From Syntrophothermus lipocalidus DSM 12680 (GTDB taxonomy: Bacteria; Bacillota; Syntrophomonadia; Syntrophomonadales; Syntrophothermaceae), in assembly GCF_000092405.1 (NCBI RefSeq), contig NC_014220.1:2294001-2358000 (forward strand): a stretch of DNA of 64,000 nucleotides, given 5' to 3'. Every line of letters starts with the position of its first letter. The stretch's first letter is position 1. The position numbers and the translations under genes are program-made. The notes under the pieces were generated by a model. That model was not told the DNA's origin. It made no database searches and saw only the letters and a program-made list of their open reading frames with translations. Positions 22,844 through 24,716 of this stretch are shown one piece after another.

Positions 22844-23845
22844 CTATTCCTCTAACCGCTGGCTAGACTTTTTCAAACGATACATAAGAGCTGATCCCTT
22901 CCCTTCCTCGGGATAAGGTTCAAAGAAGAGTATATCTAGACCCCGTTGGTCCGCATCGCGCAGGACGGCATACAAACGCTTCCCTGCCTCTTCCGCACTC
23001 GGCGGCAGCCAATAAACCAGGTCTGATTCTTTCTCGATATGGCGATACTCCTCATAACTATGAGCCACTAACCCTACTTTTTTTCCCTGCTTTTTATATT
23101 CATGTAGAGCGCTTGCCACATCTGCTGGCTCTGACAAAAGGATAACCCGCGCTCGAGTTTGGTAATGGGGGTACCTGTCCGCCGGCCCTTTAGCTTCTGC
23201 GGTCTCAACCATACCAGGAAGTACTTCCTCCAGTTCCTCCAGCGATATCCCCCCGGGACGCAGTATACGGAAAGGTTTTTGCGTCATGTCCAGTACCGTG
23301 GACTCTATTCCCATGCCGGTTGGGCCCGCGTCCAGTATCGCGCTTATCCTGCCATCCAGATCGTTTTTCACATGCTCGGGAGTAGTGGGACTTGGTCGGC
23401 CGGAGAGATTGGCGCTCGGAGCTGCTAATGGCCCCGCTTCATCGATCAAGGCTAAGGCCACGGGATGTCGGGGCATCCTCACTCCCACGGTATTCCCCCC
23501 TGCCCTAGCGGCTGAGGCCACTGACGGCAGACTTTCCATAACCAGAGTCAAAGGACCAGGCCAAAACCTGTCCATGAGAAGCCGGGCTTCGTCCGGAACC
23601 GACTTGATCAACGCTGAAACCTGGCTCATGTTGCTAATGTGAACTATTAGAGGATTGTCTGGCTGTCTCCCCTTAGCGATAAAAATCTTGCAGACCGCTT
23701 CCTCGTTGAAAGCATCAGCGCCTAACCCGTATACGGTCTCGGTTGGAAAAGCGACTACTTCGCCCTTGCGAATAAGAGCGGCTGCTTCTGCTATAACGCT
23801 AGCCTCCGGGGTCTCCGGATCAACCTTATAACACTTGGTTTGCAG
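22844..23845 (-). CDS. tsaC: Threonylcarbamoyl-AMP synthase (Sua5/YwlC type), probable CTG start
   Basis: The enzyme makes threonylcarbamoyl-AMP for tRNA t6A37. The essential N-terminal YrdC region is fully encoded: KGEVVAFPTETVYGLGADAF, then AKGRQPDNPLIVHIS, followed by the C-terminal Sua5 domain. Between the in-frame stop at 23870-23872 and this region there is no ATG, GTG or TTG. The best start is CTG at 23845 (LQTKCYKVD...), which has AAGGAAAGGGG about 9 nt upstream and gives 333 residues, close to YwlC (346). The first in-frame ATG, at 23629, would delete the catalytic N-terminus. It overlaps prmC by 20 nt. Confidence 0.9.
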   Translation of the reverse strand: MQTKCYKVDPETPEASVIAEAAALIRKGEVVAFPTETVYGLGADAFNEEAVCKIFIAKGRQPDNPLIVHISNMSQVSALIKSVPDEARLLMDRFWPGPLTLVMESLPSVASAARAGGNTVGVRMPRHPVALALIDEAGPLAAPSANLSGRPSPTTPEHVKNDLDGRISAILDAGPTGMGIESTVLDMTQKPFRILRPGGISLEELEEVLPGMVETAEAKGPADRYPHYQTRARVILLSEPADVASALHEYKKQGKKVGLVAHSYEEYRHIEKESDLVYWLPPSAEEAGKRLYAVLRDADQRGLDILFFEPYPEEGKGSALMYRLKKSSQRLEE

Positions 23846-24716
23846 GTGATTCAGCCCCTTTCCTTCCGACTACAACTCGGTCTCTTCCTGCCAGATCTTG
23901 TCCTACCTCCACTTCATCAAAGAAATGCTGCATCAAACTAAGCATAGCAGGTCCTTGGTTCCACGCAATCTCGACTAAGATATATCCTCCCTCTCGCAAG
24001 CACTGCCGTGCCTGGGGCATCAACCTCCGATAATAAGCCAGACCATCAGCCCCTCCATCCAATGCAATCCGGGGTTCGAATTCTTTCACTTCTAGAGCCA
24101 GATTCTCCCATTCGTTCGTAGGAACATAAGGAAGGTTGGCTACTACGATGTCTAAACCGGCATTGTCCTGTCCTAATGGGGTCAAAAGGTCCCCTACCAT
24201 AAAATCGATCCTGTCATGAACCTGGTAACGGCGAGCATTTTTGCGAGCTAACTCTACAGCCGCGGAGGAGATATCAATTGCCACTATGCGGGCATTAGGC
24301 AAGTACACGGCCAGAGCTATGGCAATAGCCCCGCAGCCAGTTCCGACATCCGCAACCCAGAGTGATCCGCCCATCCCGCGCCCAATTGCTATCGCTTTTT
24401 CCACCATTACTTCCGTCTCTGCCCGCGGGATAAGCACCTCAGGGGACACATCGAACTCAAGAGAAAAAAACTCCTTCTTCCCAGTAAGATACGCTACTGG
24501 CTCACCCTGGACTCGTCGTTTAATGATTTCCCGGTAACAAGACCTTTCATCCTGATTCACGGGCTGGTAATAATTTACATAAAGGCCTACCCGGTCTATT
24601 CCCAGAACATAGGCTAATAACAGCTCTGCTTCCAATCGAGGTTCTGCTATGTTTTTGCGACGAAAATACCCGGTAGTCCACTCCAAAAGACTTTTAACTG
24701 TCCAAGGCTCCTGCAT
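23826..24716 (-). CDS. prmC: Release factor glutamine methyltransferase PrmC
   Basis: The 296-residue SAM enzyme methylates the Gln of the GGQ loop of RF1 and RF2. It has the helical N-terminal domain and the SAM motif VADVGTGCGAIAIAL (about 118-132). The substrate-binding motif reads NLPY (VVANLPYVP) instead of the usual NPPY. It lies directly after prfA, its substrate gene, with no gap. Confidence 0.93.
   Translation of the reverse strand: MQEPWTVKSLLEWTTGYFRRKNIAEPRLEAELLLAYVLGIDRVGLYVNYYQPVNQDERSCYREIIKRRVQGEPVAYLTGKKEFFSLEFDVSPEVLIPRAETEVMVEKAIAIGRGMGGSLWVADVGTGCGAIAIALAVYLPNARIVAIDISSAAVELARKNARRYQVHDRIDFMVGDLLTPLGQDNAGLDIVVANLPYVPTNEWENLALEVKEFEPRIALDGGADGLAYYRRLMPQARQCLREGGYILVEIAWNQGPAMLSLMQHFFDEVEVGQDLAGRDRVVVGRKGAESPANQVL

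Follow-up and report, generated by a model that had tools for sequence, protein, structure and literature searches.

Translation of tsaC in Syntrophothermus lipocalidus most likely starts at a CTG codon, at position 23845 of the window (the whole 64-kb stretch of DNA that was analysed), in an intact gene present in a single copy. We put the probability of this reading at about 0.85. In the best reading of the sequence, CUG initiation would be helped by a strong Shine-Dalgarno (SD) site formed by codons of prmC. The original prediction had named this CTG as the probable start, and it gained support on two sides: conservation of the protein began at the CTG column, and CTG recurred in relatives.

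The tsaC gene and its start region

The stop-to-stop tsaC frame (23869..22844, minus strand) comprised 341 aa and matched TIGR00057 with 221.8 bits over residues 17-217, above the family cut-off of 123.2. The Sua5-type C-terminal part was also present, as seen in phmmer alignments to 6f87 (residues 26-336) and 2eqa (residues 11-336); the PDB relatives of Sua5 length were 6f87, 2eqa and 9d3h. The product is predicted to be a TsaC/Sua5 L-threonylcarbamoyladenylate synthase. The frame contained no internal stop and its family match was full-length, in agreement with the intact reading frame described originally. The S. lipocalidus genome (G000; a single contig of 2,405,559 bases) had only one tsaC match, and both tsaD and tsaB were found in it. 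Since tsaC was a single copy accompanied by its partners tsaD and tsaB, it is very likely needed and, judged from gene content, very likely essential in this species.

The minus strand carried, in this order, prfA, prmC, tsaC, mntP-like, ywlE, rpiB and glyA. Names of prmC and tsaC came from family searches, and the remaining genes of the cluster carry the names that we presume from their sequences. The rpiB and glyA genes overlapped by 4 nt in the window. An apparent RpiB-GlyA fusion in one frame of 567-608 aa was seen at L205, L212, L213, L215 and L229 (genomes G016, G013, G005, G009 and G039), and a ywlE-like gene was joined in frame to rpiB (314-375 aa) at L208, L218, L219, L221 and L223 (genus g16, G014).

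Read on the minus strand from 23872, the start region was TAG TCG GAA GGA AAG GGG CTG AAT CAC CTG CAA ACC AAG TGT TAT AAG GTT GAT. We numbered columns as codons counted back from the PTETVYG motif, by which the tsaC N-termini were aligned. In this numbering the S. lipocalidus frame opened at column -41, the codons from TCG to the first CAA filled columns -41 to -32, and the only near-cognate codons among them were two CTG (Table 1). The original prediction made no mention of the one farther upstream. Its other statements on this region were borne out: no ATG, GTG or TTG occurred between the in-frame TAG and the conserved motif, the first being the ATG at 23629, far 3' of PTETVYG; a ribosome site, AAGGGG, was present at the stated 9 nt 5' of CTG 23845; and the end of prmC overlapped the CTG-started tsaC by 20 nt.

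The lack of a canonical start exceeds chance: among the 60 minus-strand ORFs of the window picked as likely genes, tsaC was the only one in which more than 45 codons separated the upstream stop from the first canonical start. The runner-up was pyrG (window 40599), with a TTG start 45 codons into its open frame. In 28 genomes of the order pyrG started with GTG in 21 cases, TTG in 7 and ATG in none.

Table 1. Positions in the window of the features around the proposed tsaC start
Feature	Positions	Strand	Details
tsaC (L-threonylcarbamoyladenylate synthase, Sua5/YwlC type)	22844..23845	-	coding region if CTG 23845 initiates; 333 codons and stop
prmC (release factor N5-glutamine methyltransferase)	23826..24716	-	ATG 24716, TAA 23828-23826; TIGR03534 267.4 bits, cut-off 199.1
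ATG, first canonical start codon of the tsaC frame	23627..23629	-	codon 80 counted from 0; within the catalytic domain
CTG, proposed tsaC start, column -33	23843..23845	-	start column of relatives; CTG without alternative in five more genomes
Upstream in-frame CTG, column -36, less likely start	23852..23854	-	AAGGGG abuts; column -36 not a conserved start
AAGGGG, SD-like, made of prmC codons	23855..23860	-	9 nt before CTG 23845; duplex -13.0 kcal/mol with a presumed anti-SD tail
In-frame TAG, upstream bound of the tsaC frame	23870..23872	-	sequence

The start column across the order and rival readings

The N-terminus was readable at 57 of the 58 tsaC loci of the order, and 54 of the 58 were counted, leaving aside G062 (no N-terminus), the second G001 contig (a duplicate) and the fusions in G042 and G051. 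The column table (n=53) also omitted the other G001 locus, and the SD table additionally omitted G039. In the 54 unfused, readable genes, tsaC started at or adjoining one column, 33 codons 5' of PTETVYG. Of 53 genes, 46 had M, L or V at this column and all had Thr at column -31; conservation fell 5' of -33, except at columns -38 and -37, which carried the ribosome site. The invariant Thr together with the loss of conservation upstream implied that the start must lie at -32 or earlier.

Aligning the prmC/tsaC junction in relatives had been proposed as a check on CTG, and it found the codon conserved in part of the order. Six of the 54 genes had CTG at -33 and no ATG, GTG or TTG from -48 to -26: those of S. 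lipocalidus, of G005, G009 and G050 (one genus), of G035 and of G019. Thus, CTG recurred at the start column in five genomes of three genera besides S. lipocalidus. Most other members of the order had ATG, GTG or TTG at -33, and the congeners of G019 (G007, G013 and G037) had ATG exactly where G019 had CTG. Two further genes had CTG at -33 along with a canonical codon nearby, namely TTG two codons earlier (-35) in G061 and ATG one codon earlier in G039. The tsaC tree, built by a quick method in which 22 of the 62 inner forks were weak and gain and loss of CTG were not told apart, called for at least 4 changes to or from CTG. In close genome triplets, 2 changes to CUG were found among 61,358 ancestral AUG starts (PMC5622118), a rate not directly comparable with ours since divergence in the order was far greater than in those triplets.

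G016, a single-contig genome from the family of G005, had TTT at -33 (L127, G016:C1) and no ATG, GTG, TTG or CTG in reach. A strong ribosome site lay 8 nt before the TTT, and a near-cognate ATT two codons before it was too close to that site. This locus may reflect either UUU initiation or a base error.

Outside the order, 104 of 107 scored loci had a canonical codon in columns -48 to -26. These loci comprised 75 scored out of the 77 in the genome_contigs set that did not duplicate order genomes, and 32 from the same phylum; some genome_contigs loci were unplaced and could be members of the order. Two of the three exceptions had GTG at -24. The third was L167 (G070:C1:136865-137725), the tsaC of another family, with no canonical codon near the expected start and a GTC nearby. 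No tsaC match was found in 7 of the 101 genomes searched, and G034 gave only a weak HypF-like match.

The three congeneric CTG genomes allowed a look at the stretch following the CTG. Two of them had an ATG at -15, and pairwise differences in columns -32 to -16 were 2/0, 4/2 and 4/2 (synonymous/non-synonymous). Since the changes 5' of this ATG were mostly synonymous, the stretch appeared to be translated. These counts are small; taken with the invariant Thr and the pattern of conservation, they support translation from -33. The same comparison of G019 with its two nearest ATG relatives (3/4 and 4/3) was neutral on translation.

Several other readings of the S. lipocalidus gene were considered. 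A start at the in-frame CTG 23854, improbable but the strongest of them, would give three residues more and could draw on an AAGGA stretch 6 nt before that codon. However, column -36 was not conserved, all CTG relatives had their CTG at -33, and AAGGGG could not serve CTG 23854 since it directly abuts it. A sequencing or assembly error concealing a true ATG, GTG or TTG is conceivable in that one transition would turn TTG into CTG, and 8 members of the order started with TTG (in the grouping of the SD comparison). The original prediction had called for the base calls to be re-checked, and an error proved a poor explanation, given the identical CTG in five other genomes and the low error rate stated for this genome: according to the genome report, it was finished with 454 and Illumina reads at 184.6x coverage and a stated error of less than 1 in 100,000 (PMC3035303). 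We therefore regarded an error as highly improbable.

It was equally hard to believe that ribosomes translating prmC shift frame and produce a PrmC-TsaC fusion, with no separate tsaC start. True in-frame prmC-tsaC frames did exist in two members of the order (L134, G042:C134, 607 aa; L137, G051:C185, running off the contig), but a well-spaced SD site preceded each CTG, and the offset of the prmC frame to tsaC was 2 in S. lipocalidus and 1 in G009, G050, G005, G035 and G019. In G061 the offset was 0 with a stop between the genes. Since the frame relation differed between species, a conserved frameshift was unlikely. The least credible reading was that tsaC is a decaying pseudogene or that its product starts at ATG 23629. 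Gene finders limited to ATG, GTG and TTG would presumably call that ATG, but the resulting form would be without PTETVYG, and decay is at odds with the sole genomic copy having an uninterrupted, fully matching frame. A start at CTG 23845 thus remained the preferred reading.

Ribosome site, prmC stop and initiation machinery

The ribosome site of tsaC lay within the final codons of prmC. SD pairing, estimated by a simple duplex model with an anti-SD tail that we took to be the right one, was -12.2 to -13.6 kcal/mol at CTG starts, versus a median of -9.9 at 28 ATG-started relatives (p = 0.0002 by the Mann-Whitney test, and 0.001 when each genus contributed a single CTG genome; G061 was placed in the CTG group by hand). 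CTG and GTG/TTG starts did not differ significantly (p = 0.08), whereas GTG/TTG starts differed from ATG starts (p = 0.017). Since CTG could not be separated from GTG/TTG and these in turn differed from ATG, the stronger ribosome sites look like a graded payment for weaker start codons. The original prediction had suggested that CTG may limit expression of tsaC; a site of this strength argues that expression may be kept up rather than simply throttled.

Reinitiation after termination was strongly distance-dependent in experiments with E. coli and Haloferax, and a stop-to-start distance of -8 to +10 nt was treated as predictive of it, according to PMC10666635. In each of the other five genomes with an unambiguous CTG the prmC stop ended 2-5 nt before that codon, so that ribosomes ending prmC would be well placed to restart there. 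The spacing known for termination-reinitiation coupling was thus found in five of the six unambiguous CTG genomes, the exception being S. lipocalidus, where prmC overlapped tsaC by 20 nt, counted from the first base of the CTG, which exceeded this range. In G061 the stop lay 6 nt before the CTG. Termination-reinitiation probably operates at tsaC in the relatives. The original prediction had raised a link to prmC translation; from these distances we infer that the relatives favour such coupling, and that the case for it is weakest for the S. lipocalidus pair.

Control genes of the same order had a canonical start in all 217 scored cases. For prmC this was 54 of 54 scorable genomes, with G039 and G062 (contig without prmC), G038 (gene truncated at the contig end) and the second G001 contig (a duplicate) left out. 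The other controls came from 30 chosen genomes of the order that included all CTG genomes: rpiB 25/25 scored (30 loci), pyrG 28/28, fba 26/26, atpD 27/27, tsaD 29/29 scored (30 loci) and tsaB 28/28 scored (30 loci). Narrow motifs had scored pyrG in 6/28, atpD in 24/27, rpiB in 25/30 and fba in 27/27 cases, and wider motifs were then used. The count for rpiB is that of the narrow motif; the wider one scored 21, two of them without a canonical start, where rpiB was fused to ywlE. By Fisher's test the contrast of 7/54 with 0/217 gave p = 9e-6, and that of 6/54 gave p = 5e-5, values whose certainty is overstated since related genomes were taken as independent. The method did find a true non-canonical start, as infC had ATT or ATC at the expected position in 18 of 18 scored cases (30 loci of the order).

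As far as sampled, the genomes, the t6A pathway and the operon were thus not lax in their start codons. We rejected a CTG habit of the whole pathway on the counts for tsaD and tsaB, and one of the operon on that for prmC. Loss of IF3 was likewise rejected as a cause, since IF3 was found in 60 of 63 genomes of the order, including all six CTG genomes. Of 10 genomes searched, 9, S. lipocalidus among them, had an intact anticodon stem of the initiator tRNA, GGGCTCATAACCC, which discriminates against CUG, and only the fragmentary G050 gave no match to this pattern; a relaxed initiator tRNA was rejected on this ground. Judged by the presence of IF3 and by the anticodon stem, the weak codon was not excused by relaxed machinery.

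Proposed initiation and known systems

Hecht 2017 reportedly measured a table of all 64 codons as starts. PMC11497404, through which its figures are given here, puts CUG at 0.86% of AUG output and at 0.024% of the initiation codons used by bacteria. In view of such low output and rarity, a CUG start in an essential gene is surprising. In the initiation that we propose, fMet-tRNA would read CUG with a first-position mismatch, and the strong SD site in the last prmC codons would offset the weak codon. Ribosomes that have just finished prmC may also offset it, above all in the relatives, and the result would be TsaC at a low but sufficient level. TsaC output may track IF3 activity to some degree because IF3 disfavours codons such as CUG.

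A bolder idea is that the CTG acts as a sensor: poor t6A supply or low IF3 would loosen start selection, directly or indirectly, raising TsaC and steadying t6A. If so, the repeated switching to or from CTG in the order and the stronger ribosome sites would be the tuning of a loop. We considered this very unlikely; A37 of the E. coli initiator tRNA is unmodified, as given in PMC4717488, which speaks against the direct form of the idea.

Repetition at one column, in one gene and one order, with a canonical codon in some of the closest relatives, is unusual. One start column switching between ATG, GTG, TTG and CTG among close relatives, in a gene that is very likely essential, forms a natural series in which it can be asked how a bacterium affords CUG, and whether the cost is covered by a strong ribosome site together with an adjoining stop codon. 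Moreover, gene finders that accept only ATG, GTG and TTG cannot find CUG, so true CUG genes would be missed or cut short.

Our searches of the open-access literature listed no paper on a CTG or other non-canonical start of tsaC. Two marks of a non-canonical start were seen in tsaC: no ATG, GTG or TTG could give an intact product, and the codon recurred at the start column. The textbook exception with such a start is infC. Both infC, with ATT or ATC and autoregulation by IF3, and tsaC are translation-related essential genes (tsaC very likely so) whose near-cognate start persists among relatives. However, the infC start is mismatched at its third base and the gene is under control of its own product, whereas tsaC is mismatched at the first position and, unlike infC, its start varies among relatives.

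Non-canonical starts are already known from infC and from sigR of Streptomyces, as noted in PMC5472188. According to the same paper, sigR has a GTC start repressed by IF3, and it is like tsaC in having a very rare start within a closely packed gene pair. The two cases differ in that the role of the sigR codon, which is to hold the anti-sigma factor in excess, was examined with mutants, whereas the tsaC start is proposed from sequence. They differ also in the ribosome site, which at the CTG-started tsaC is stronger than at its ATG-started relatives.
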